A stretch of DNA of 58,992 bases from a virus. Below are positions 14,318 through 37,266 of this stretch, in pieces. The notes under the pieces were generated by a model, which saw only the letters and a list, made by a program, of their open reading frames with translations, was not told where the DNA came from and searched no databases. The stretch spans positions 1-58,992 of IMG/VR virus record IMGVR_UViG_3300042869_000878; one strand, given 5' to 3'. Position numbers and translations under genes: made by a program. Each line of letters starts with the position of its first letter. Within the stretch, counting starts at the first letter, position 1.

Positions 14318-14677
14318 TTATTTTAACTTCTTTATCTCATCACGATATTGAATACACTTCTCAAAATCTTGATTCTTAATTGATTCGTCTAATTTGGATT
14401 GTAATTCAGAAATCTTTTCTTTATTTTCCTCCAATTTCTTTATCTTATCCCGTAACTCCACGGCTTCCTCAAAATTCTGATCCTCAATTGCCAAATTTAA
14501 TTTTTCTTTTAAATTGTGTAATTCATTACTTTTACCTCTAGTCATGTAAGTATAAGTAAAAGACCCATCTGGGGATTTATAGGTTTCTTTGGTCCATTTT
14601 TTATCACCTAAATTAAAACCTGTTCCTTCTGAGAACATTTCATTAAAAATTTTATCAAAATCTCTAAAATTAAACAT
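14318..14677 (-). CDS. Small protein with two UVR motifs, McsA-like adaptor candidate
   Basis: A 119-residue protein whose C-terminal half holds two UVR motifs: NLAIEDQNFEEAVELRDKI (about 62-80) and SIKNQDFEKCIQYRDEI (about 98-114). UVR motifs mediate protein contacts in UvrB/UvrC, ClpC and the ClpC adaptor McsA. The N-terminus (NFRDFDKIFNEMF) looks unlike the zinc-binding part of McsA and has no Cys pairs. It is divergent from the ClpC-like unfoldase across a short shared promoter region, and that unfoldase also has a UVR motif. A role as its adaptor is a reasonable inference. Confidence 0.7.
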   Translation of the reverse strand: MFNFRDFDKIFNEMFSEGTGFNLGDKKWTKETYKSPDGSFTYTYMTRGKSNELHNLKEKLNLAIEDQNFEEAVELRDKIKKLEENKEKISELQSKLDESIKNQDFEKCIQYRDEIKKLK

Positions 14678-14743
14678 ATTATTATTTTTTTATGGTTTAT
14701 TATTTTTTCACTTTTAACTAAATATATGCCAAAACATAAAATA

Positions 14744-14786
14744 TGTCAATATGTCAGTTAAAAAAATTTTATATGACAATTTGTCA
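14744..14786. promoter_or_regulatory. Cluster of TGTCA boxes between the UVR and Clp genes
   Basis: Four TGTCA boxes lie at 14744, 14752, 14774 (as TGACA) and 14782. The first two are direct repeats 8 bases apart. The last two form the inverted repeat TGACA-ATT-TGTCA. The cluster sits between divergent genes that probably work together and looks like an operator. The arrangement is reminiscent in style, though not in sequence, of CtsR operators of clp genes. Confidence 0.4.
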
Positions 14787-14838
14787 AAATGTATACTTTT
14801 TAAAATTGGTTTACTACTTTTTAAGAAAACAAAAAGAT

Positions 14839-16902
14839 ATGATTGAATTTATGGATGAAAACGATAAAGGTAAGAAAAAGACTGATGGAGGAACTCCAGT
14901 GTTAGATAACTTTAGTAAGGATTTAAATAAATTGGCAAGTGAAGGAAAATTAGATCCTGTAATTGGTCGTGAAAAAGAAATTTTTAGAATTGCCCAAGTA
15001 TTGTCCCGTAGAAAAAAAAATAACCCAATAATTATTGGTGAACCAGGTGCTGGTAAAACGGCAATTGTTGAAGGTCTCGCTATGATGATACATAATGGTG
15101 AATGTCCAAAAAATCTATCTGATAAAAGAATCATATCTTTGGATATTAACTCCGTTGTTGCGGGTACAAAATATAGAGGTCAATTTGAAGAAAGAATGAA
15201 GATTATCATTGAAGAACTTCAGGCCTCACCAAATATCATCATCTTTATTGATGAAATTCACACAATTGTTGGAGCTGGTAATAGTTCAGGTTCATTAGAT
15301 GCGTCCAACATATTTAAACCGGCATTGTCTCGTGGTGAGATCCAATGTATTGGGGCAACTACTTTAGATGAGTATCGTAGAAATTTTGAAAAGGATGGTG
15401 CGTTAGAAAGAAGATTCCAAAAGATCGTTGTTGACCCATCTTCCAAAGAAGAAACATTTGAAATACTTAAACAAAGTAAGGGGAAATACGAAGAACATCA
15501 TAAAGTTTATTACACCGATGAATCATTACGTTTATGTGTGGAATTGGCAGATCGTTATATTACCGATCGTGAGTTTCCAGATAAAGCGTTTGACATTTTA
15601 GATGAGGTTGGGTCAAGAATGCAAATTGACATTAAACTACCTGAAATTATTGAAAAACTAAAACAAGAGGCTCAAGATATCAAAAAAGAAAAAGTTGACG
15701 TAATCAAAAAACAAAATTACGAACAAGCTGCAGAACTTAGAGATAAGGAACGTAAAATTTTGAAGGATTTAGACACCGAAAAGAAAAAATTTGACGAAGA
15801 ACTTAAAACAAGTAAACGTGGGATCCCTGATGGTTTAATTTATGAGGTGGTGTCAAATATGACTAAAATACCTGTAAATAAAATTAATATTGACGAAAAG
15901 AATTCTTTGGTTAATTTAGAATCAACATTAAACTCCAATGTAATTGGACAGGAAGATGCGGTTGGTAAAATTTCAAAATCAATTAGAAGAAATCGTGTGG
16001 GGATTAAGGATCCAAATCGTCCAATCGGATCATTTATATTTTTAGGGTCAACAGGTGTCGGTAAAACATTCTTGGCAAAACAATTGGCTAAAGAAATCTT
16101 CGGAAGTGTAGATAGTCTTATCCGTGTTGATATGTCTGAATACCAAGAGAAACATACAATCTCAAGATTGATTGGATCTCCTCCAGGATACGTCGGTCAC
16201 GAAGAAGGTGGTCAACTTACAGAACAAGTTAAAAACAAACCTTACTGTGTGATTTTATTTGATGAGATTGAAAAGGCAAATAAAGACATATTCTCAACAC
16301 TATTACAAATGTTGGATGATGGTCACTTAACTGATGGCTTGGGAAGAAAGATCAATTTTAAGAATTGTTTGATCATTATGACATCTAACATTGGGGTTAA
16401 AAAATTACAAGATTTTGGAACAGGGGTTGGATTTAAAACAAGTAACTCAAGTGATGTTGTTCAGGAAGAGAAAAAACGTGATATTCTTAAAAAAGAACTT
16501 AGTAAATTTTTCGCACCTGAATTCTTAAATAGAATTGATGATGTGGTAATCTTTAATTCACTTAATAAAGATAACATTGATAAAATTGTTAAGTTGGAAA
16601 TTGATATTTTAGTTAAACGATTAAAATCCATGAAATACAATTTTACGTATGAAGATTCAGTAATTGATTTGATTTCTAAAGTTGGTTTTGATGAGGTGTT
16701 TGGAGCAAGACCAATAAAAAGAGCAATTCAAAATAAAATTGAAGATTTAATTTCTGAAAAAATTCTAACAGGAGAAGTTAGTGAAAACAAAGAATATATG
16801 TTATTTGTAAAAACAGAAAATGATGAAGAGATCATCAACATTGAAGAAAGAACAAAAGAAGAACCTAAGAAAAAAGTTAGTAGAAAGAAAAAGGGAGAAT
16901 AA
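14839..16902 (+). CDS. ClpC/ClpA-like AAA+ unfoldase with UVR motif and ClpP-docking loop
   Basis: A 687-residue two-ring Clp/Hsp100 ATPase that unfolds proteins and feeds them to a ClpP protease. It has Walker A GEPGAGKT (67-74) and Walker B FIDEIH in the first AAA domain, a UVR-type middle segment QNYEQAAELRDKE (about 290), a second Walker A GSTGVGKT, LFDEIEKA, and a sensor/arginine-finger region with LNRIDDV. It lacks the usual N-terminal Clp repeats. A GVGFKTS loop in the second domain matches the IGF/VGF loop that docks on ClpP, absent from ClpB. No ClpP gene is seen, so it would use host ClpP. The ATG at 14839 is chosen because upstream sequence is AT-rich and carries operator-like repeats. 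Confidence 0.88.
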   Translation: MIEFMDENDKGKKKTDGGTPVLDNFSKDLNKLASEGKLDPVIGREKEIFRIAQVLSRRKKNNPIIIGEPGAGKTAIVEGLAMMIHNGECPKNLSDKRIISLDINSVVAGTKYRGQFEERMKIIIEELQASPNIIIFIDEIHTIVGAGNSSGSLDASNIFKPALSRGEIQCIGATTLDEYRRNFEKDGALERRFQKIVVDPSSKEETFEILKQSKGKYEEHHKVYYTDESLRLCVELADRYITDREFPDKAFDILDEVGSRMQIDIKLPEIIEKLKQEAQDIKKEKVDVIKKQNYEQAAELRDKERKILKDLDTEKKKFDEELKTSKRGIPDGLIYEVVSNMTKIPVNKINIDEKNSLVNLESTLNSNVIGQEDAVGKISKSIRRNRVGIKDPNRPIGSFIFLGSTGVGKTFLAKQLAKEIFGSVDSLIRVDMSEYQEKHTISRLIGSPPGYVGHEEGGQLTEQVKNKPYCVILFDEIEKANKDIFSTLLQMLDDGHLTDGLGRKINFKNCLIIMTSNIGVKKLQDFGTGVGFKTSNSSDVVQEEKKRDILKKELSKFFAPEFLNRIDDVVIFNSLNKDNIDKIVKLEIDILVKRLKSMKYNFTYEDSVIDLISKVGFDEVFGARPIKRAIQNKIEDLISEKILTGEVSENKEYMLFVKTENDEEIINIEERTKEEPKKKVSRKKKGE

Positions 16903-16917: not shown

Positions 16918-17703
16918 TTAGTGTTTTTCGTAACCTAACTCTTCAATCATCATCTTACCAACTTTAATACCGTTGTAAGTGTCATCTACGACCACGTATT
17001 CGTTTCTTGTATGGTAGTTGTAGTATCCAATGGATATGTTGAAACAAGGTATGTTAAACATCGTTCTGATAGGGTATATGTCCGTGTAAGGATGTTTGTG
17101 ATATTTGGTATCAGATGGAAAGTGTTCTGTAATCAATCTACCACCAACTTCAAAGAATTTACTATCACGATCAAACATACTTCTTCCCATCAAAAACTCA
17201 GAGATCATATTGTTTTCAGGAGCGTCAAATTGAATTCCATAACCAACATTCATAAAAAACTCAGGATCCGCCTTAAATGATCCTTTACAACCAGTTTCCT
17301 CAGACACAAAAAATGCGGCCTTTAGATTAGGTAATTCATTCAATAATTCCAAACAACCGTATATACCACATTTATCATCGCCACCAATACCTGTTGGTTC
17401 ATCATTGTCGTTATACGCCTTTAGTGATAATTTTACATTACCCTGAGCATCAGGTAACATTTCCTCTACAACATTAATTGTATCAATGTTATGTACCGTA
17501 TCAGTATGTGCAATCACACATGGGAAATACAATACGTTTTCGTCGGTTTGTTTTGTTGCGTAAATGTTTGACATTTCGTCAACATAAAAAGGGATATTGT
17601 TTTCGGTTAACCAATTTGTGATAAATTGAACCATTTTTTCTTCCTGATAAGTTTTTGTGGGTACGGATAATACCTCTTTCAATAATTCATAATTTCGTTC
17701 CAT
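16918..17703 (-). CDS. M20-type metallopeptidase, short form
   Basis: A 261-residue zinc peptidase-like protein. It shows the di-zinc ligands of the M20/M28 clan: VIAHTDTV (about 65), the bridging Asp in GIGGDDKCG (about 106), the catalytic Glu pair in SEETGCKGS (about 135) and a C-terminal His in NYHTRNEY. Family members (peptidase T, carboxypeptidase G2) are around 400 residues with a dimerisation lid; this one lacks room for the lid. A TATATTTG promoter box lies at 17708-17715, five bases before the ATG. It might trim host peptides or capsid-protease products; the substrate is unknown. Confidence 0.8.
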   Translation of the reverse strand: MERNYELLKEVLSVPTKTYQEEKMVQFITNWLTENNIPFYVDEMSNIYATKQTDENVLYFPCVIAHTDTVHNIDTINVVEEMLPDAQGNVKLSLKAYNDNDEPTGIGGDDKCGIYGCLELLNELPNLKAAFFVSEETGCKGSFKADPEFFMNVGYGIQFDAPENNMISEFLMGRSMFDRDSKFFEVGGRLITEHFPSDTKYHKHPYTDIYPIRTMFNIPCFNISIGYYNYHTRNEYVVVDDTYNGIKVGKMMIEELGYEKH

Positions 17704-17730: not shown

Positions 17731-19104
17731 TTATAAAAATTTTTTCTTTACTATTCTTCTTTCATTAAATAATTCGGGTTGATTATCCAATTGATATAAA
17801 CCATCAATATCCAAAAGTCTTTGGTGATATTTGTTGGTTTTATCGTTATAAACATTAACCAACGCTTTATTTGTTTCAGGTTGTATAGTTTGAACAATAA
17901 ATGATATATCAGGATCCTTTTTTGTTTTAACCCAATCAAACCCATATTTTTCATCAATAAAGTCTCTTATCTCACGATATCCGTTAATATCAATAAAACG
18001 ATCATCCTCTTCAATTTTTTCTAACATTTGGTCTAAACCTTTTGAAAAATATTCCTGAATAGCATTATCGTCCCAATCAACACAATCCACCTCATATTCT
18101 AACTCACCCCAATATCCTCTATTTTTTTTATCATAAAGTTTTATTAATTTGTTCAATAATTCACTCAATGTAAATCTGTAGTTTTCAACATCATGATACC
18201 AATGTAATAATACCCCAACCGTTGTTTCAAATCTATAACCTTTGTGTACTTGCTTAATTCCAAATCTATCAAATGGTTTATCAATCTCACCTAAGATGAT
18301 ATCTTTAACCGCATCATTAATACATTCTTGCCATTTGGATGCATATTCATTGATTAAATCATCAACAATATAACTAAAGTCTTCACCTAAAATTTTTGAT
18401 ATACCTTCATAATCATCTTCCTTTATAAAACCATTAGAAAATTTAGCAATTTTGAAAGCCTTACTTCTGTTATCATCATTAAAATTATACTGAATATACT
18501 CACCGTGTTTCCACCTATCGTGTTCATTATACGAATCGTAATCACGACTTGAGTAAGCACTGGTAAAAGCCCTATACGTGTAAATGTCATCACTATCCTC
18601 AACATCAATAGTATCCAAAAAAACCTCATCATCCTCAAATTTAATAACAACCTTAGAATTACTTGGATTTCTTTCATTGAATTTTACTTCTTCAATTATC
18701 GGATCATCCCCATCATCTCTCCATCCAGGATCATAACCTTTAGATACCTTTTTTAGAAACTCATATGTTTTACCACCTTTTATAATTGGTGATAATACTT
18801 TTAATGAAGATAAAAATGATCGTTTAAAATCGTTTATCTCTATAATTTCGTCATGATTTTTAAGATCTCTTATAACACTCCCATTATCATCATTATAAAT
18901 GGAATATAAACTATCATCCTTTTTACCGATCACAAAATATAGATCACCATTTTTATAATGATTACCCCAATGATCCTTACCATAAAAATTATCTCCAAAA
19001 TATTGGGAGGCATTTAAAGTTAATACTTTAACGATCTTAACATTTTCATTATCCTGTATTACATCAACATCCTCGTCGTATGGGTTATATTTTCCCTTTT
19101 CCAT
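17731..19104 (-). CDS. Unknown 457-residue phage protein
   Basis: An acidic protein that I do not recognise. The start is set at the ATG at 19104, because a longer frame to 19293 would run through the tmRNA gene. The region about 30-90 (YGKDHWGNHYKNGDLYFVIG) loosely resembles a module in the leucine-rich protein at 50.5 kb and other large phage proteins, in which a WCT motif precedes a strand reading Y-x-x-GPLYVI; here the Cys is missing. The rest is mostly helical with no membrane segment. An ATATTTAT motif lies 7-14 bases before the start. Confidence 0.6.
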   Translation of the reverse strand: MEKGKYNPYDEDVDVIQDNENVKIVKVLTLNASQYFGDNFYGKDHWGNHYKNGDLYFVIGKKDDSLYSIYNDDNGSVIRDLKNHDEIIEINDFKRSFLSSLKVLSPIIKGGKTYEFLKKVSKGYDPGWRDDGDDPIIEEVKFNERNPSNSKVVIKFEDDEVFLDTIDVEDSDDIYTYRAFTSAYSSRDYDSYNEHDRWKHGEYIQYNFNDDNRSKAFKIAKFSNGFIKEDDYEGISKILGEDFSYIVDDLINEYASKWQECINDAVKDIILGEIDKPFDRFGIKQVHKGYRFETTVGVLLHWYHDVENYRFTLSELLNKLIKLYDKKNRGYWGELEYEVDCVDWDDNAIQEYFSKGLDQMLEKIEEDDRFIDINGYREIRDFIDEKYGFDWVKTKKDPDISFIVQTIQPETNKALVNVYNDKTNKYHQRLLDIDGLYQLDNQPELFNERRIVKKKFL

Positions 19105-19126: not shown

Positions 19127-19156
19127 TTGATTATTGTAGTTTTACACTTATATTTG
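19127..19156 (+). promoter_or_regulatory. Bacteroidota-type promoter of the tmRNA gene
   Basis: TTG at 19127-19129 and TATATTTG at 19149-19156 are separated by 19 bases, the canonical layout. The start point would be about 20 bases before the mature tmRNA 5' end, leaving a leader for RNase P to remove. Confidence 0.7.
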
Positions 19157-19182: not shown

Positions 19183-19578
19183 GGGGGTGTTTTTGGATTT
19201 GACAGGTATTGGCTGAGGATCAAGGGCACGTGGAGACTGAATTAATCTCCTAAAAAACTGATTCACATTTATAGACGGCAACGTTTTGAACAAAATGGAA
19301 ACTCTTGGTTTACTAAGAGAATCTGAAGTTACTGTAGCCTAAGAGGTTTACGGAAACGGGGGGTCGGCAGACATATAACCTAGCAACAGAAGTCGTTGAC
19401 GAGTTGGTTTTCTCTCTAAAAGAAAACAAAACGGGTATGGTTCCCCGTAAGGACTGTCACCGTCGCTGAGCGGTGTGAGAACTCAGATATTTCGGAAGGT
19501 ATGAAAAACCTTGATCTAAACGTGTAGTCCTTATCTGACAGGATATACTGGACCGGAGTTCGAGTCTCCGCACCTCCA
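19183..19578 (+). ncRNA. ssrA: tmRNA (transfer-messenger RNA)
   Basis: A complete phage-encoded tmRNA of about 396 bases, which rescues stalled ribosomes and tags the nascent protein. The 5' end GGGGGTG pairs with CACCTCC at 19571-19577, followed by discriminator A; CCA is not encoded. The D-like region TTTGGATTTGACAGG and the T arm CGGAG-TTCGAGT-CTCCG (19556-19570) are typical. The resume codon appears to be GGC at 19277, just after TAGAC, and the reading frame runs 21 codons to TAA at 19340. The tag begins GNVLNKMETL and ends ESEVTVA, so it is long and lacks the usual ALAA ending. It has its own promoter and terminator. Confidence 0.93.
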
Positions 19579-19584
19579 CTATTT

Positions 19585-19614
19585 AAACCTCACTACTTAT
19601 AGTGAGGTTTTTTT
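19585..19614 (+). terminator. Intrinsic terminator of the tmRNA gene
   Basis: AAACCTCACTA pairs perfectly with TAGTGAGGTTT across a 4-base loop, then T-rich sequence. It faces the terminator of the minus-strand large RNA about 50 bases away. Confidence 0.95.
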
Positions 19615-19693: not shown

Positions 19694-20651
19694 GTTAGTT
19701 TCTTTATATTAGTAAGTTTACTTAAAAAAAATAAAAACCTGAGATTACAGTTTTTTGTGAGTTATCTTTTGAAGGATTATTGTTTCCCTTCTTATCCACT
19801 TCCTTTTGAGAAGTAATACTCAGTGACGGTATTTTAGGTTTACCACTCCTTAAGGTTTGAATTACTCTATCAATACTTAACTCTTTTTGAGACTGCCGTC
19901 CCAGTTCGTCCTTGCGGGACTAAAGGTCTTTCTTAACAATACACATTGACTTGGGGTCTCTGTGTGCAATGAACGGCTCATTACTATGTAGTCACCTTTC
20001 ACTCAAACCTAATGGACACTTTTCCTTAATGTATTTTTTAATTATTGGATAATTTTGGAATCCATAAGTTTTGTGTTGTAGATGTGTCAGAGTAGTGGTC
20101 CACCGTAAGCTTCGTTTCCTTTTGAGAAACGAAATACTAAACTACTCCGTGAAGTGTCCCCACCTCCATATTTTAAGATTACTTCATAAAGAGATCTTGG
20201 TAGATCTGTCTTTAGGGATAGTAGCGACACCACTCGTTCTCTATCTTACCTTTCGGTTTTAAGTCCTCTATCATATTGGGACCCGCAATAGTGTAACTGG
20301 ATGGTCACATTTCTTACAGAGTTCCTATGGGTTATTCTTATTACTCTTCCGAGTTCAACCTGACAATCTACTTTGCCAGGTCACCCTACCATTTTCCCTA
20401 CGAAGTTATCCTCGGTACTGAAGGTTTGGTGATATCCCACTTGTGTACTTGAGCTCAATCCCTACCAAAAGGTGAGTTTCAAACCGCAATCTCCTCAACA
20501 CGAGGGAGATCACTTTATCCTACTTTCGTAGTTTATTTAAGGACCATACACGGCCCATTATCATTTATCGGTTATCATTATCCCGAAGGATTACTTTCAC
20601 CAAATGGATAATCTTTTTGTTTCAAAGAACGTCTCGGACATTTCCGATTTG
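19665..20651 (-). ncRNA. Giant structured noncoding RNA, copy 1 (GOLLD/ROOL-like class)
   Basis: About 990 bases with no convincing reading frame. Tandem host-type promoters lie upstream and an intrinsic terminator lies at the 3' end, all on the minus strand. A paralogue lies at 36.2-37.3 kb. The two copies differ at compensatory positions in hairpins (for example 20192-20207, 20343-20354, 20358-20381, 20489-20510), which shows selection on RNA structure. GAAA-capped hairpins on this strand, CTAC-GAAA-GTAG at 20520-20531 and ACC-GAAA-GGT at 20248-20257, agree with the strand call. Size, ornate structure and a tRNA/tmRNA-rich phage setting match GOLLD and ROOL RNAs, which form multimeric RNA assemblies. 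I cannot assign it to either by eye. The 5' end is estimated from the promoter. Confidence 0.88.
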
Positions 20652-22963: not shown

Positions 22964-23003
22964 AATTGTGTTTTTTTATATATGACGTGTATTATTAAAA
23001 TAG

Positions 23004-23078
23004 TGGTCCCAGCAGGACTCGAACCTGCGACCCTCTGATTATGAGTCAGATGCTACTAACCAACTGAGCTATAGGACC
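23004..23078 (-). tRNA. tRNA-Met (anticodon CAT)
   Basis: A 75-base canonical cloverleaf. Acceptor GGTCCTA pairs with TGGGACC; the anticodon arm is TCTGA-CTCATAA-TCAGA; the T arm has TTCGAGT; discriminator is A and CCA is not encoded. CAT could also mark an Ile tRNA modified by lysidine, which sequence alone does not exclude. Confidence 0.9.
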
Positions 23079-23082
23079 TAAG

Positions 23083-23173
23083 TAATCAAAAAAGGATTCG
23101 AACCCTTACCACTGTTTTTAACTCAGTATCCCCACATATAATGGGTAGCGTCTACCAATTCCGCCACTTGATT
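23083..23173 (-). tRNA. Class II-size tRNA, Leu-like, anticodon ambiguous (ATA or TAA)
   Basis: A 91-base element with acceptor AATCAAG/TTTGATT, a Leu-type D arm (GGCGGAATTGGTAGACGC) and a T arm AAGGG-TTCGAAT-CCTTT. Two hairpins lie between D and T arms. The first, CCCA-TTATATG-TGGG, is in the normal anticodon position and would read ATA, an odd anticodon. The second, ACTG-AGTTAAAAA-CAGT, looks like a Leu(UAA) anticodon arm but sits where the variable arm should be. Either the order is unusual or the tRNA has drifted. Discriminator A; CCA not encoded. Confidence 0.65.
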
Positions 23174-23187
23174 ATTTTATGATTATA

Positions 23188-23373
23188 TTATCTATGTTTT
23201 TTAGGTGTACATTGATGGTTAAGTTGGTTCTTCCCCTTGTTAACTCTCTTAGTCTGTTTATACATCTTCTGTTGTGTGTTAGAATGTTTTTTGTAGTTGT
23301 ACCCATGTTGTTGGGTAGAACAAGATGTTAGTATAACGACTAACACCATAAGTGATAATAGGTATTTTTTCAT
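23188..23373 (-). CDS. Small basic lipoprotein
   Basis: A 61-residue protein with a lipoprotein signal: MKKYLLSLMVLVVILTSCS, lipobox LTSC with the lipidated Cys near residue 18. The mature part is about 43 residues, rich in Lys, Gln, His and Asn. It lies inside the RNA region between a tRNA and a tRNA-like module. Small phage lipoproteins can act as outer-membrane spanins or in superinfection exclusion; nothing here decides between these. Confidence 0.7.
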   Translation of the reverse strand: MKKYLLSLMVLVVILTSCSTQQHGYNYKKHSNTQQKMYKQTKRVNKGKNQLNHQCTPKKHR

Positions 23374-23394
23374 TTTTATTCTTTTTAAAATTTG

Positions 23395-23469
23395 TAGTCA
23401 GGGTAGGATTCGAACCTACAATAAGTAACCTTAAAGGACTTGGCACCATGCCTCATTACACTCCTGACT
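23395..23469 (-). ncRNA. tRNA-like module 1 (no normal D or anticodon arm)
   Basis: 75 bases with acceptor AGTCAGG/CCTGACT and a perfect T arm GTAGG-TTCGAAT-CCTAC. The middle does not fold as a tRNA: a GGCA-TGG-TGCC hairpin and an AAGT...ACTT stem with an 11-base loop replace the D and anticodon arms. It shares GTGTAATGAGG and AGGTTACTTAT with module 5. Acceptor and T arm should suffice for RNase P and RNase Z. Confidence 0.7.
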
Positions 23470-23682
23470 ATTTTTTCGTTCAATCATTTCTGACTGTCCC
23501 CAATACCGAGTTTCAGCGGCAACCCACTTTCGTGAGGGGTTAGAACTTGTGTGTTAACTTACTCCTGTTACTGGTACACTAACCAACCGACTTAGGCTCA
23601 AGTAATCGGCTCAGGTCCCCATGGTTGTAACACCACTTCTCATCGTTCGGGAGCAAACTAGTCGTGTACTACTCGACTCGTG
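23470..23682 (-). ncRNA. Structured spacer between tRNA-like modules 1 and 2
   Basis: 213 bases without a reading frame. Shares with the spacer at 24078-24295 the motif ACGATGAGAA-RTGGT-six bases-ACCAT-RGGGA and a later TCACGAA hairpin. The CAC-GAAA-GTG hairpin near 23525-23540 is GNRA-capped on the minus strand. It could be freed by cleavage at the flanking tRNA-like modules. Confidence 0.5.
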
Positions 23683-23871
23683 CAATCAGGACAGGATTCG
23701 AACCTGTATGATGTATTTCCCTTACATCTCGGAATTAAGAGTATCATAGAAACAACTTAATCCTACTAACTTACTTGTTGCGTCTACCAAGTTAACATTG
23801 ACCCCGTAGTGGATTCTAACCACATTGTTTTTACATCTAGAACGGGGTTGTTAACATTCCGCCACCTGACT
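23683..23871 (-). ncRNA. tRNA-like module 2, 189 bases, with hairpin inserted in the D loop
   Basis: Acceptor AGTCAGG/CCTGATT and T arm ACAGG-TTCGAAT-CCTGT are normal. The D arm reads GGCGGAAT, then a 66-base insert, then TTGGTAGACGC; removing the insert restores a Leu-type D arm. The insert is bounded by GTTAAC at both ends and contains a 7-pair ACCCCGT/ACGGGGT stem. The anticodon region is expanded to about 75 bases, with hairpins CTC...GAG and GATGTA...TACATC inside an ATGAT/ATCAT stem. No anticodon can be assigned. Confidence 0.65.
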
Positions 23872-23876
23872 ATATT

Positions 23877-23981
23877 TTATTTCAATAATCTAGACCAAAT
23901 CTTAATTACCATATCTCTTTGTGGAGATGGTTTTAGTTTCGACCACCTATCTATCCAATTCTTTATTTGTTCCTGTGTCAT
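23877..23981 (-). CDS. 34-residue peptide inside the tRNA-like array
   Basis: A frame from the ATG at 23981 to TAA at 23877, beginning MTQEQIKNWIDRW and ending VIKIWSRLLK. It reads as an amphipathic, Trp-rich helical peptide and fills the only short gap in the array (23872-23996). No family recognised. Its start resembles that of the 101-residue protein at 24.7 kb (MTQKQQDAID). It may be real or chance. Confidence 0.4.
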   Translation of the reverse strand: MTQEQIKNWIDRWSKLKPSPQRDMVIKIWSRLLK

Positions 23982-23996
23982 TCTTATTTAATCTTG

Positions 23997-24077
23997 CAGT
24001 CAGGACAGGATTTGAACCTGCATTGTCACCCCTTTATAGTGTACACCGCGAGCTGCGTTACCATTCGCCACCTGACC
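23997..24077 (-). ncRNA. tRNA-like module 3
   Basis: 81 bases. Acceptor GGTCAGG/CCTGACT, D arm GCG-AATGGTAA-CGC and T arm GCAGG-TTCAAAT-CCTGT are all normal. Between D and T arms are 33 bases that do not give a 5-pair anticodon stem; the best hairpin, CACT-ATAAAGG-GGTG, is preceded by an extra 12 bases. Discriminator G. Confidence 0.6.
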
Positions 24078-24295
24078 TATGTTAAAACACCCTTATCTAT
24101 CCAACTTACAGGTGTTATGGCTGTCCTCATTGCTGAGTTAGGAATAAACTGTCTTGCTCCCCTTCGTGATGGGTTTTACCGACCTTAGTAGTCAACTAGA
24201 AGGTAATATATATACAAACCTTCAACTCTTCCCTATGGTTATCATACCATTTCTCATCGTATGGGACATACTATCTGATGATTAGTCAGAACGTG
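24078..24295 (-). ncRNA. Structured spacer between tRNA-like modules 3 and 4
   Basis: 218 bases without a reading frame, homologous in part to the spacer at 23470-23682. Visible hairpins on the minus strand are CATAC...GTATG, ATGGT-N6-ACCAT and GAAGGT...ACCTTC. The motif ACGATGAGAA is identical in both spacers. Confidence 0.5.
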
Positions 24296-24362
24296 TAGTC
24301 AGAACAGGATTCGAACCTGCAATCTTCCTTGTTAGGAGCTCTGCCAATTGAGTTACCTGACT
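24296..24362 (-). ncRNA. tRNA-like module 4, shortened anticodon arm
   Basis: 67 bases with acceptor AGTCAGG/TCTGACT, D arm CTC-AATTGGCA-GAG and T arm GCAGG-TTCGAAT-CCTGT. Only 16 bases separate position 26 from the T arm (22 in a normal tRNA), folding as TCCT-AACA-AGGA. No 7-base anticodon loop can form. Confidence 0.65.
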
Positions 24363-24558
24363 ATTTTACTATTAGCTCTTTAGCATTCTACTCCCTGCAT
24401 GACGGAATTGTATCTTACTTAGCCCCACGTCCTCAGTACGGGTACCAAAGTTCACTAATAGTTGAGGATGAGAAGTCCTCTGTGTTGTAAGCATATTGTT
24501 ACTTTTAACAACTTCCTTTTTTATCAATACCTCCTTTCTCAAGGGAACAACACGTTTG
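24363..24558 (-). ncRNA. Structured spacer between tRNA-like modules 4 and 5
   Basis: 196 bases without a reading frame. On the minus strand GTGTTGT pairs with ACAACAC, enclosing CCTT-GAGA-AAGG (GNRA-capped) and TTGTTA-AAAG-TAACAA. A further hairpin GAGGA-CTTCTCA-TCCTC follows. It is less clearly related to the other two spacers. Confidence 0.45.
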
Positions 24559-24673
24559 TAGTCAGGGCCGGACTCGAACCGGATAAGTAACCTTACTTCT
24601 AATGGAATCTCCAAGTGTCGAGAACCACTAGCTCTATGGATTTGGGACCGTCCCTCATTACACCCACCTGACT
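24559..24673 (-). ncRNA. tRNA-like module 5, first of the array
   Basis: 115 bases with acceptor AGTCAGG/CCTGACT and a T arm CCGG-TTCGAGT-CCGG. It resembles module 1 (GTGTAATGAGG, a GGGA-CGG-TCCC hairpin that covaries with GGCA-TGG-TGCC, and AGGTTACTTAT) but carries about 40 extra bases where the anticodon loop should be, including AGTG-GTTCTCGA-CACT. A promoter ends right at its 5' edge. Confidence 0.65.
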
Positions 24674-24677
24674 CCGA

Positions 24678-24708
24678 CAAAGATATGGTAAGTTTTTCAA
24701 TCTACCAA
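24678..24708 (-). promoter_or_regulatory. Promoter of the tRNA-like array
   Basis: On the minus strand TTG (24706-24708), 20 bases, TATCTTTG (24678-24685). The predicted start falls within a few bases of the first module's 5' end, so the array can be transcribed on its own although it overlaps the end of the 101-residue gene. Confidence 0.7.
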
Positions 24709-25002
24709 ATCTTTTTCCACATCTTCATACCATTCTTCAACCGCAAAGATTAATTGAATAAACTCGCAACCATCATCGTCCGATTCATATCTTACGTGGA
24801 ACCCACCTGTTGATACATCTGTTTTTTCTTTAAACGCCATCTTTAATAATCGTCTCGCTTCTTGTCTCAATTCAGGAACAGTTGGAATACCTTCGTCAGA
24901 AGCCGCCCACTCCCAATTCAATACTTCCATTACTTTTCGGACTTGTTCAAACTTGAAGTAGTCCATTATGCTATCAATAGCATCTTGTTGTTTCTGTGTC
25001 AT
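24697..25002 (-). CDS. Conserved-looking small phage protein
   Basis: A 101-residue acidic protein. The core WEWAASDEGIPTVPELRQEARRLL followed by TGGFHVRYESDD and EEWYED is a pattern I have met in small uncharacterised phage and plasmid proteins. No catalytic motif is evident. It begins 1 base after the stop of the upstream 139-residue gene, so the two are co-expressed. Its last codons overlap the promoter of the tRNA-like array. Confidence 0.6.
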   Translation of the reverse strand: MTQKQQDAIDSIMDYFKFEQVRKVMEVLNWEWAASDEGIPTVPELRQEARRLLKMAFKEKTDVSTGGFHVRYESDDDGCEFIQLIFAVEEWYEDVEKDLVD

Positions 25003-25003
25003 A

Positions 25004-25423
25004 TTATTTATCTAAATCTTTATCATTATCCATCAACTCAATAAGAGCTTCCTTTTGTTTCTCTTTCTTCACCATCTCAATCATCTTCTTGATTACCGCA
25101 ATGTTTCCTTCTCTCTTATCTTTGAAGAAATCAAAATACATCGGTGGAAACTTCCAACTCTTAATCGTATAGTCAAATCCCAAAATCTCATTTGGTGTGG
25201 TGTCAGTTTTAATATCCACAAAATATGAATAATTCTCTTCAAACCATCTAAATGCCTGTGAGAAGATTGGCGCTGCAATATTTTCAGACACTCCGTTGGT
25301 GTATACTCTACTTGTCCGTAACTCCCTGTTGTCCAAATGACTGAAACATCCATAACAACGCTCGTTAAATCCAAGATTCTTGAGTTCCGAAGCAATTTCG
25401 TATGTAACAAATTCTTTTTCCAT
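25004..25423 (-). CDS. Unknown phage protein, 139 residues
   Basis: Begins MEKEFVTYEIASELKNLGF at the ATG at 25423, chosen over an ATG six codons upstream because a TATCTTTG promoter box lies at 25428-25435. It contains ERCYGCFSH and APIFSQAFRWFEENYSY, the latter typical of a family of small phage proteins of unknown function. The C-terminus is a charged helix. It is the first gene of a two-gene run with the 101-residue protein. Confidence 0.6.
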   Translation of the reverse strand: MEKEFVTYEIASELKNLGFNERCYGCFSHLDNRELRTSRVYTNGVSENIAAPIFSQAFRWFEENYSYFVDIKTDTTPNEILGFDYTIKSWKFPPMYFDFFKDKREGNIAVIKKMIEMVKKEKQKEALIELMDNDKDLDK

Positions 25424-25464
25424 AATACAAAGATAAGACAAGTTTATTAATAAAACAAAAAAAG

Positions 25465-25535
25465 TTGTCCCGTCTGGACTCGAACCAGAAATACAACAGT
25501 CAAAGTGTTGTGTGATGCCATTTCACTACAGGACA
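25465..25535 (-). tRNA. tRNA-Gln (anticodon TTG)
   Basis: Acceptor TGTCCTG/CGGGACA, D arm GTGAAATGGCATCAC, anticodon arm CAACA-CTTTGAC-TGTTG, T arm TCTGG-TTCGAGT-CCAGA. All arms pair perfectly or with a single G-U. Discriminator A, no encoded CCA. Confidence 0.92.
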
Positions 25536-25592
25536 ATATGGAGCGTAGTGGGGCTGCAGTCCCCTGAGGCACCTACGCAAGTTACTCCTCTT
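25536..25592 (-). ncRNA. Hairpin element between tRNA-Gln and tRNA-Asp
   Basis: GCGTAG pairs with CTACGC, enclosing GGGG-ACTGCAG-CCCC and a short side segment. Too short for a tRNA and without a reading frame. It may be a processing or folding element of the tRNA transcript. Confidence 0.4.
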
Positions 25593-25668
25593 TGGCGGCT
25601 CCAACGGGATTCGAACCCGTACCACACGGCGTGACAAGCCGGCATTGTAGCCATTCAACCATGGAGCC
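25593..25668 (-). tRNA. tRNA-Asp (anticodon GTC), CCA encoded
   Basis: Acceptor GGCTCCA/TGGAGCC, anticodon loop TTGTCAC, T arm ACGGG-TTCGAAT-CCCGT, discriminator G followed by an encoded CCA. It is the only tRNA here whose CCA end is in the DNA. Confidence 0.9.
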
Positions 25669-25746
25669 AAAGTGGGTGGAATCAGAGGCCTTCTGTCCAC
25701 CGAGACCTCGTAGTTGACTTTCGTCAGAGCTTACCGAGACACCAGG
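25669..25746 (-). ncRNA. Structured spacer between tRNA-Gly and tRNA-Asp
   Basis: Two hairpins on the minus strand: CTCGgTA...TACGAG capped by TGAC-GAAA-GTCA (GNRA), then GGTGGA-CAGA...TCTG-TCCACC. No reading frame. The GAAA cap supports the minus strand as the RNA strand. Confidence 0.45.
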
Positions 25747-25819
25747 AGCGGGTTGGGGTAATCGAAACCCCGTCTTCACTTTGGAAGAGTGACATAATGA
25801 GCCGTTATACGAAACCCGC
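25747..25819 (-). tRNA. tRNA-Gly (anticodon TCC)
   Basis: Acceptor GCGGGTT/AACCCGC, anticodon arm TCACT-CTTCCAA-AGTGA, T arm GGGGT-TTCGATT-ACCCC, discriminator T. The D arm is weak (three pairs with a G-U). It hides in a stretch that looks empty at first. Confidence 0.85.
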
Positions 25820-25823
25820 TTAT

Positions 25824-25877
25824 AAAAAACCCCATCTTCGTCGGATTAACGGACCGACTGCCATATCGGAGGTGGGG
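25824..25877 (-). terminator. Probable intrinsic terminator between tRNA-Phe and tRNA-Gly
   Basis: CCCCACC pairs with GATGGGG (one mismatch), enclosing GTCGG...CCGAC, and six T follow on the minus strand. It would split the tRNA cluster into two transcripts. The bases up to 25903 hold nothing else I can recognise. Confidence 0.55.
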
Positions 25878-25903
25878 GGTTGTCCTGTTAATTCAGAACC
25901 TCG

Positions 25904-25976
25904 TGGTACCAGGTGGATTCGAACCACCGACACAAGGATTTTCAGTCCTTTGCTCTACCAACTGAGCTATGGTACC
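25904..25976 (-). tRNA. tRNA-Phe (anticodon GAA)
   Basis: Acceptor GGTACCA/TGGTACC, D arm AGCTCAGTTGGTAGAGC, anticodon arm AAGGA-CTGAAAA-TCCTT, T arm GGTGG-TTCGAAT-CCACC, discriminator A. Confidence 0.95.
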
Positions 25977-25983
25977 ATTATAG

Positions 25984-26058
<75 letters not shown>

Positions 26059-26065
26059 AATTAAG

Positions 26066-26140
26066 TTCTCACGGTTGGAATCGAACCAACGACCTTTTGT
26101 GTATCAGACAAATGCTCTAAGCCAACTGAGCTACGTGAGA
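26066..26140 (-). tRNA. tRNA-Ile (anticodon GAT)
   Basis: Acceptor TCTCACG/CGTGAGA, anticodon arm TTTGT-CTGATAC-ACAAA, T arm GTTGG-TTCGATT-CCAAC, discriminator A. Confidence 0.95.
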
Positions 26141-26147
26141 ATATTAG

Positions 26148-26221
26148 AGCCTCCAGTCGGAATCGAACCAACGACCTACTGATTACAAATCAGTCGCTCT
26201 GACCTGCTGAGCTATGGAGGC
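26148..26221 (-). tRNA. tRNA-Thr (anticodon TGT)
   Basis: Acceptor GCCTCCA/TGGAGGC, anticodon arm ACTGA-TTTGTAA-TCAGT, T arm GTTGG-TTCGATT-CCGAC, discriminator T. Confidence 0.95.
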
Positions 26222-26227
26222 TTGTTG

Positions 26228-26298
26228 CACGACAGTAGGGACTCGAACCCCAAACAACGGTTTTGGAGACCGTGATGATACCATTTCACCACTGACGT
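26228..26298 (-). tRNA. tRNA-Trp (anticodon CCA)
   Basis: Anticodon arm ACGGT-CTCCAAA-ACCGT and T arm TGGGG-TTCGAGT-CCCTA. Acceptor ACGTCAG/CTGTCGT has one T-T mismatch in the middle. Discriminator G as in most bacterial Trp tRNAs. Confidence 0.9.
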
Positions 26299-26305
26299 GT
26301 TTAAG

Positions 26306-26380
26306 TGACCCCGGTGGGACTCGAACCCACGACTCCCTCATTAAAAGTGAGGTGCTCTAAACCTGCTGAGCTACGAAGTC
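26306..26380 (-). tRNA. tRNA-Lys (anticodon TTT)
   Basis: Acceptor GACTTCG/CGGGGTC (two G-U pairs), anticodon arm CCTCA-CTTTTAA-TGAGG, T arm GTGGG-TTCGAGT-CCCAC, discriminator A. Confidence 0.95.
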
Positions 26381-26390
26381 ATTATTTTTG

Positions 26391-26462
26391 CGGTGATGGG
26401 GAATTTCGAAATCCCGACCCTCTGATTAACAGTCAGATGCTCCACCTCTGAGCTACATCACC
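26391..26462 (-). tRNA. tRNA-Asn (anticodon GTT)
   Basis: Acceptor GGTGATG/CATCACC, anticodon arm TCTGA-CTGTTAA-TCAGA, T arm with TTCGAAA loop, discriminator G. It is the first tRNA of the cluster in transcription order. Confidence 0.93.
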
Positions 26463-33779: not shown

Positions 33780-34832
33780 TTATTTAATAATTCTTGTTGT
33801 GTAAAACTTACCACTATCGTCAGTAAGAGTAATAACATAAGTTCCATTACTTAATGTTTCAGAATCAAACTGAATGTTGTTAGTAAAATATTTTTCTTGG
33901 TGAACACATCTTCCGTCGATAGACATAACTCTTAACGTTCCACTATTTGATGGTGTGTTAATATTAACAATACCTAACACAGGGTTTGGCCAAACTTTAA
34001 CGTTATTAGTCATTGTTTCTTCAACCCCAATTATAAATTCAGGAACAACGTTTAAGGTATAATCATTTAAAATTCCACCCGGTGTCCAAACTCCATTACT
34101 ATCAATTGAAAAGTTTATTGAAGTATAAACCTGACAACCATTAATGGAAATTGCGTATAAGTTAATCGGGAGCATTTGTGAAGTAAACGTTGAGGTAGGG
34201 AATGTAATGGTTGGGTATTGTTCGTTTGAACTCGTCCCATTTCCTCCATTTCCAAAAAACCATTCCCATTCTACAGTATTTGAACCTTGGTAAACCACGT
34301 AAATAGTGTTTGGTTCAGATACAAGTGAATCAGGAACAAAGTACAGAGTATCAATTGTCGGCATTGCCTCAATTAAACCATCACAGTTGTTATCAATACC
34401 GTCATAACATAGTTCAGGTGCCCCTGGATAGATATATGGGTCAAATGGATTACAGTCAATGTTATCCATGAACCCATCAAAATCTGAGTCTTGGTTTTGA
34501 AGTACTATCGTAAATGTCTGAACACCTTGTCCTGACCCAAGATATATTGTTTCATTTATACAAGTCTCACCTAAACATGGTGAAGTATAAATTGCACAGA
34601 TACTAACATTTAGACTATCAATTGCTGGTACAACTGCAACATAACTTCCTGTAGGTTGTTGTGTTAAAGTAATACTACCTTGAATACCACCTCCATAATA
34701 GTTTCCGAACAATGTGTATGGACATCCTCCGAGGTTAATTATATCAACGTTAAAAGACGTTAATACTTGTGATGATGCACTCATTCCAATGAATGCGAAA
34801 AGGGTTAAAAGAAATAATTTAATTTTTTTCAT
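33780..34832 (-). CDS. Secreted protein with type IX secretion C-terminal sorting domain
   Basis: A 350-residue exported protein. The Sec signal peptide is MKKIKLFLLTLFAFIGMSAS with a cut after SSQ-type residues (about 21). Residues 105-150 hold a MopE-like, calcium or copper-binding segment: DSDFDGFMDNIDCNPFDP then PELCYDGIDNNCDG. The last 75 residues are a type A T9SS sorting domain: VKVWPNPVLGIVNIN, LRVMSIDGR, LSNGTYVITL, TTRIIK. In Bacteroidota such domains send proteins through the T9SS to the cell surface. A phage gene with this layout would let the phage place a protein on its host, perhaps to block superinfection. It is a single-gene transcript with its own terminator. Confidence 0.9.
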   Translation of the reverse strand: MKKIKLFLLTLFAFIGMSASSQVLTSFNVDIINLGGCPYTLFGNYYGGGIQGSITLTQQPTGSYVAVVPAIDSLNVSICAIYTSPCLGETCINETIYLGSGQGVQTFTIVLQNQDSDFDGFMDNIDCNPFDPYIYPGAPELCYDGIDNNCDGLIEAMPTIDTLYFVPDSLVSEPNTIYVVYQGSNTVEWEWFFGNGGNGTSSNEQYPTITFPTSTFTSQMLPINLYAISINGCQVYTSINFSIDSNGVWTPGGILNDYTLNVVPEFIIGVEETMTNNVKVWPNPVLGIVNINTPSNSGTLRVMSIDGRCVHQEKYFTNNIQFDSETLSNGTYVITLTDDSGKFYTTRIIK

Positions 34833-36268: not shown

Positions 36269-37266
36269 CAGATTAGAAAAGCCTGAGATTACAGCTTATG
36301 TTAAGAAACTTTTGAAGGATTATTGTTTCCCTTCGTATCCACCACCTTTTGGGTAGTATTTCTTAGTGACGGTATTTTAGGTGTACCACTCCTTGAGGTT
36401 TGAATTACTCTATCAGTACTTAACTCTTTCCGAGGTTGCCACCCCAGTTCGTCCTTGCGGGACTAAAGGTTTTTCTTAACAATACACATTGACTTGGGGT
36501 CTCTGTATGCAATGAACGGCTCATTACTATGTAGTCACCTTTCACTCAAACCTGATGGACACTTTTCCTTTGTTATTTTGTAATAATTTTAGGGTTGTGT
36601 TGTAGATGTGTCAGAGTAGTGGTCCAACATAAGCTCTGTCTCCTTTTGAGCGACAGAATACTAAACTACTCCGTGAAGTGTCCCCACCTCCATATTTCAA
36701 GATTACTTCATAAAGAGACCTTGGTAGGTCTTCCTTAGGGATAGTAGCGACACCACTCGTTCTCCATCTTACCTTTCGGTTTTAAGTCCTCTATCATATT
36801 GGGACCCGCAATAGTGTAACTGGATGGTCACATTTCTTACAGAGTTCCTATGGGTTATTCTTATCGTTCTTCCGAACTCAACTTGAGAATCTACTTTCCC
36901 AAGTCACCCAACCATTTTCCCTACGAAGTTATCCTCGGTACTTACGGTGTGGTGATATCCCACTTGTGTACTTGAGTTCAATTCCCCTTACGGGGTTTCA
37001 AACCGCAGTCTCCTCAACACAGGGGAGACCACTTTATCCTACTTTCGTAGTTTATTTAAGGACCATACACGGCCCATTATCGTTTATCAGTTACACTCAA
37101 GCTGCGGACTTTCTGCCATTTACTCGGTGGATAATATCACCGACACTTTGTGTTTCCTGAACGGATAATCTTTTTGTTTCAAAGAACGCTTTTTCAAAAA
37201 GAGAAGAAGGAGGAATCTTTACAACCTACCGAAGTAGGAATCTTTACAACCTCTTCATCTCAAATC
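36245..37266 (-). ncRNA. Giant structured noncoding RNA, copy 2 (GOLLD/ROOL-like class)
   Basis: About 1,020 bases, paralogous to the RNA at 19665-20651 across nearly its whole length. Both copies share long identical blocks (for example GGGACCCGCAATAGTG on the plus strand) and the same hairpins with compensatory changes. Copy 2 has the same GAAA-capped hairpins at 37039-37050 and 36771-36780. The two copies diverge mainly in peripheral hairpins and at the 5' end, where copy 2 has extra sequence (37082-37250). No reading frame is conserved between copies. The 5' end is estimated from the proximal promoter. Confidence 0.88.

Follow-up and report, generated by a model that had tools for sequence, protein, structure and literature searches.

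A phage tmRNA with a selected 21-residue tag lies next to an N-domain-less ClpC-like unfoldase and may encode a custom degron

The window, i.e. the whole stretch of 58,992 bases analysed here, is a piece of a tailed phage in which the large terminase and the portal were recognised. It encodes a tmRNA whose tag peptide of 21 residues is under purifying selection in a single reading frame. This tmRNA is linked to the gene of a ClpC-like unfoldase that has lost the N-domain and keeps the loop for docking to ClpP. Our preferred reading, which we hold at not quite an even chance, is that the tag is a custom degron for this phage unfoldase acting with host ClpP, delivered by a tmRNA expressed from its own promoter. 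It is possible that these viruses mark and destroy proteins through a system of their own.

The tmRNA and its associated elements are the following:

19127-19156, + strand: promoter of the Bacteroidota type, TTG-N19-TATATTTG (consensus TTG-N17-23-TANNTTTG)
19183-19579, + strand: one-piece phage tmRNA (ssrA), called by ARAGORN and RF00023, with a complete 7-bp acceptor stem
19272-19276, + strand: TAGAC directly 5′ of the resume codon, the A at 19273 being position -4
19277-19342, + strand: tag frame, from the GGC resume codon to TAA, GNVLNKMETLGLLRESEVTVA (ARAGORN, -4 A, purifying selection)
19585-19613, + strand: intrinsic terminator, 11-bp stem and T run, closing the tmRNA unit

The Rfam model RF00023 matches the window at 19183-19581 over its entire length (model positions 1-374 of 374), with a score of 112.5 bits (E 3.6e-43) for a gathering score of 47. 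All 7 bp of the acceptor stem are present (GGGGGUG/CACCUCC), and the G-U at pair 3-70 is found in the window tmRNA as well as in 55 of 55 distinct relatives. With this stem, G3-U70 and a T-arm, the molecule has an alanine tRNA-like domain. The 3′ end encoded by the gene reads ACTA instead of ACCA and therefore requires CCA addition by the host. The Bacteroidota promoter consensus was present in 109 of the 136 distinct regions upstream of related tmRNAs, 1.9 being expected from shuffled sequences; sigma-70-type promoters near the tmRNA did not exceed the chance frequency, and the Bacteroidota type is the relevant consensus. Since it has a promoter and a terminator of its own, the tmRNA is probably a separate transcription unit. 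Judged from these features, it is very likely a functional rescue RNA.

The predicted tag comprises 21 sense codons (19277-19339), followed by TAA at 19340-19342, and its C-terminal end is VTVA. The A at 19273 is the equivalent of A86 of the E. coli tmRNA, the main determinant of the frame (PMC2481249). Relatives were collected in three ways, using the Clp protein, the tmRNA 5′ end or the tag peptide. Among 101 distinct related phage tmRNAs the -4 base was A in all 101, a count that is partly built in because our script picked the frame by an A at -4. At -5 only C or T occurred, and 97 of the tmRNAs resumed at GGC, 4 at GGA. A DNA pattern built from the peptide alone, including no tmRNA feature and no requirement for A at -4, detected 113 tmRNAs among 115 loci, and all its tmRNA matches also had A at this position.

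Selection on the peptide was measured from single-base codon differences among 34 tags with different peptides. The ratio of non-synonymous to synonymous differences, relative to the neutral expectation, was 0.18 in the tag frame, versus 0.70 and 2.5 in the remaining two. The two alternative frames of the tag region contain stops, and outside the tag the identity of the same tmRNAs goes down to 48%. We conclude that the tag peptide is maintained by purifying selection, in this frame only. The window tag by itself folds as a hairpin, but the central stem pairs are kept in only about half of 34 representatives. RNAalifold yielded no common fold or conserved hairpin across the tag region, which means that RNA structure is not the cause of tag conservation. 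A different frame or resume codon is ruled out by the agreement between the -4 A, selection and the peptide-only search. The tags that ARAGORN proposed for some relatives (EKEQTLIIRG, ATEQVTVA and EKKQNPCLSGMEG) are misreads, since the family tag, when aligned, has an open frame in those sequences. The first-pass annotation of this DNA had described a 21-codon tag ending in VTVA, not ALAA, and had named beforehand a different frame or resume codon among close tmRNAs as the result that would refute it: the ARAGORN call and the recurrence of the tag across the family bear out the description, and the 101 relatives have the same frame, opened by GGC or GGA.

A tag of the same kind was found in 228 phage loci, a number that includes overlapping pieces of single contigs, and this excludes chance. 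It has 21 residues in 194 loci and 22 in the other 34, with 64 distinct but similar peptides. In the 101 related tmRNAs, residues G11 and L12 are invariant, and K6 and R14 are common. The conserved core can be written KM..LGL.R; conservation nevertheless spans all 21 residues, and it is strong in the middle of the tag. The ends are mostly VTVA, VVA, VAVA or VTVS, the final residue being almost always A. These tags of 21-22 residues are not canonical short proteolysis tags of the ALAA type. A tblastn search of 50,697 known phage genome records with the 21-mer gave no match, short queries being insensitive. This insensitivity is illustrated by a 25-mer for mycobacteriophage Bxz1, whose tmRNA has a long tag: it likewise gave no match.

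Some related loci carry altered or additional copies. In one of them (L088, 840-630, − strand), the tmRNA has an internal deletion of just under 190 bases, which removes the pseudoknot region, retains the tRNA-like ends and shortens the tag to GNVLDNLSVVGLN. Partial second copies of the tmRNA 3′ end lie downstream of the full tmRNA in two others, at a distance of 2.2 kb in L143 (6502-6590) and 0.5 kb in L122 (1606-1531), and may be traces left by insertions at this end of the tmRNA. As for other RNAs of the window, it contains a tRNA cluster at 23003-26462 (− strand), in which the tRNA-Tyr has the anticodon ATA, the usual one being GTA. Two Rfam tRNA matches, at 23997-24077 and 24296-24362, had no ARAGORN call.

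The promoter type is one of three indications of a Bacteroidota host. The second is a Por_Secre_tail, the type IX secretion sorting domain, in a window protein encoded at 33780-34832 (− strand), which suggests that this protein is exported by a Bacteroidota host; the same protein additionally has a MopE-type metal-binding motif. The third comes from the terminase: Flavobacterium phages, at 27% identity, are among its better cultured relatives. Probably, then, the large virus group with this tmRNA infects Bacteroidota.

Comparison with the host ssrA, which the first-pass annotation had called for, was run on this presumed host phylum. Bacteroidota tmRNAs resemble that of the phage in being one-piece molecules of about 390 nt with the RF00023 fold and A at -4, and many have a glycine resume codon; with many of their tags the phage tag thus has the glycine start in common, and at the end only the final A. 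Almost all of 74 tags from this phylum are 9-10 residues long and end in AMAA, ALAA or RLAA, and three longer or odd ARAGORN calls among them look like misreads. The phage family differs by its tags of 21-22 residues and by the lack of an ALAA or AMAA end. The contrast in length announced by the annotation holds against bacteria at large as well, where the modal length is 10 residues (PMC11915505): compared with the presumed host phylum, the window tag is about twice as long and its end is different. Even with this different end, recognition by host ClpX could persist. Engineered E. coli tags with an LVA end are still degraded.

The neighbours of the tmRNA in the window are the following:

14318-14677, − strand: small McsA-like protein with a pair of UVR motifs, encoded divergently from Clp (PF02151, E 2.7e-17; McsA model below cut-off)
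14743-16902, + strand: ClpC-like double-ring unfoldase without N-domain, best solved relative ClpC
16918-17703, − strand: M20-family peptidase, PepT-like, between Clp and the tmRNA (PF01546 weak; NCBIfam PepT-like matches below cut-off)
17731-19104, − strand: fast-evolving protein between the peptidase and the tmRNA, no Pfam match
19736-20149, − strand: GOLLD RNA converging on the tmRNA (RF02032, 311.9 bits), a neighbour that we do not claim for the tagging system

The ClpC-like gene ends at 16902, i.e. 2281 bases upstream of the tmRNA, in agreement with the ~2.3 kb first reported. To quantify this linkage we used tmRNA loci that had not been chosen by Clp and had at least 4 kb of upstream sequence. 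A ClpC-like gene was present upstream, on the same strand, in 97 of these 97 loci, at a median distance of 2364 bases. Reciprocally, 49 of the 50 Clp loci with room contained a tmRNA. The exception, L065, has the conserved neighbours and no tmRNA, Rfam search included. The M20 peptidase was found in 165 of 165 Clp loci with room (by eye, its putative metal ligands HTD, DDK, EE and H are likely intact), the fast-evolving protein in 153 of 239 tmRNA loci, and the UVR protein was detected in 75 of 149 loci. Other genes of the block are equally constant (KTSC, 129/132; nucleotidyltransferase, 118/120). Co-location alone is therefore weak evidence, since gene order is conserved across the entire block, and the linkage of Clp and tmRNA may be plain synteny inside one phage clade. 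Of 42 related records, 26 contain a GOLLD RNA, and the window has a second full-length one at 36280-36673 (− strand, 322 bits).

A further comparison set the distances between tags against those between neighbouring proteins, using partial rank correlation in four gene sets. Clp gave the best correlation with tag distance in three of the four (0.30, 0.46 and 0.39); the M20 gene showed no correlation in those three sets and equalled Clp in the fourth. No gene is longer or evolves more slowly than Clp, which makes it the best clock too, and the co-divergence of tag and Clp beyond that of neighbouring genes is suggestive only.

The phage Clp has two AAA modules with Walker and pore-loop motifs. 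Its closest solved structure is ClpC, with an alignment that begins at ClpC residue 151, and its true start is probably the ATG near residue 33. The ClpP loop of the window protein reads GVGF and its pore loops KYRG and GYVG. In the phage Clp family the docking loop G[VILM]GF is present in the second ring of 201 of 201 proteins, and the pore loops are kept. The two AAA rings, the UVR-type middle region, the ClpP loop and the pore loops are shared with ClpC, which acts with ClpP and the adaptors MecA and McsB. The difference lies in the N-domain, which in ClpC binds adaptors and substrates and which the phage family lacks. Clp_N, the N-terminal double repeat domain, had no match in the window Clp, hence the name ClpC-like rather than ClpC. 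In 161 of 163 phage Clp proteins the first ring (D1) begins after no more than 120 residues, which leaves no room for an N-domain. The N-domain is the site of adaptor action in ClpC, so the phage Clp would need substrates that bind the ring either directly or via another partner. A long tag could supply such binding to an N-domain-less ring, and the UVR protein is a possible Clp partner.

The other components that such a pathway would use are rarely encoded by these phages. Among related records, most of which are fragments, SmpB was found in 1 of 40 and ClpP in 2 of 41; four records of 257-304 kb had neither. These counts rule out that the phages generally encode ClpP or SmpB, and most of them would depend on the host proteins, with the reservation that records may be incomplete. 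The single SmpB gene (record G014, locus L059, 13440-13860, − strand) lies between the tmRNA and the GOLLD RNA, about 0.5 kb from the tmRNA, and the three are together inside ~3 kb. Among the window proteins scanned, neither SspB nor ClpX was recognised.

Under the custom-degron reading, the phage tmRNA would compete with that of the host for stalled ribosomes during infection, using the host alanyl-tRNA synthetase and, in most phages, presumably host SmpB. Stalled chains would gain an Ala and the tag of 21-22 residues. The N-domain-less Clp would then engage the tag, directly or through a small partner protein, the UVR protein for instance, and would dock to host ClpP through its retained GVGF loop, while the adjacent PepT-like peptidase may finish the peptides off. 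A more ambitious version, which we consider rather doubtful, pictures a self-contained system: the tag would be a private degron for the N-domain-less ClpC, the UVR protein perhaps acting as the adaptor, host ClpP would be captured, and the products would be recycled by the phage peptidase, giving an amino-acid source under phage control. The recycled chains would include those from ribosomes stalled on cut host messages.

Part of these data could also be explained by a working rescue RNA whose tag is read by host ClpXP or other proteases. Length and end of the tag would then reflect clade history, its conservation would follow from the general needs of a degron (translatable, unstructured, with small terminal residues), and the Clp gene would be unrelated. 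We view this as possible, on the unlikely side. It fits with the nearly constant final A, with the conserved order of unrelated genes in the block, and with the occurrence of tmRNAs in numerous phages, for which no link to Clp was reported (PMC9004378). However, a short C-terminal ClpX degron has no need for the conservation of 21 residues, strong in mid-tag, and the last four residues differ from those of almost all host-phylum tags read. Independently of the tag, the phage Clp could serve in head assembly or general proteostasis instead.

The unusual end could, conversely, be an anti-degron: replacement of ALAA would keep host ClpXP from degrading the tagged chains, either letting truncated virion proteins persist or blocking host turnover. 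The host-typical ALAA or AMAA end is indeed absent among the phage peptides listed, and both the terminal residues of ssrA and its carboxylate matter in recognition by ClpX (PMC7652416). We nevertheless judge this improbable, as a stable end alone requires no conserved sequence of 21 residues, the end remains small and hydrophobic rather than acidic, and a phage unfoldase with a ClpP loop is nearby in every testable locus. Still lower on our scale, and very improbable, is a non-proteolytic role of the tag, e.g. targeting to a phage compartment or binding of a phage protein. The length and the core KM..LGL.R do look more like a binding motif than a C-terminal degron, but the linkage with an unfoldase and a peptidase favours degradation, and we know of no precedent for a tmRNA tag with a non-proteolytic function.

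As a kind, phage tmRNAs are known (PMC4131195, PMC7162821, PMC9004378): ssrA was reported in 402 of 18,146 phage genomes (PMC9004378), and huge phages carry tmRNA together with SmpB (PMC7162821). Those of mycobacteriophages, Bacillus phage G, marine myophages and huge phages are likewise phage-borne ssrA genes with different tags, that of phage G reading AKLNITNNELQVA (13 residues). In a 484-kb phage (LR756508.1, locus L437, ~1599-1709), ARAGORN gives a tag of 8 residues; by eye, a GGC frame after TATAACT, with A at -4, reads a tag of 36 residues, GVNNADYESAGFTAEDFAQMDGESLYHGSERKPAAV. Annotations may understate how common very long phage tags are. In the open-access literature we found no description of a Clp link for other phage tmRNAs, nor of this tag family or its Clp linkage. 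The proposed pathway resembles the ssrA-SspB-ClpXP system of E. coli in that a tmRNA tag feeds an AAA unfoldase and ClpP, and differs from it by an unfoldase of the ClpC type.

Suggested reasons for a phage to carry a tmRNA include, at one end, continued ribosome function and, at the other, the recycling of host protein. A selected, non-host tag of 21 residues beside an unfoldase that can dock to ClpP turns the matter into a simple question: is the tag read by the unfoldase? If it is, this virus would be one of few to bring in a degron pathway of its own for ribosome rescue, and would provide a new orthogonal pair of degron and unfoldase usable in Bacteroidota.
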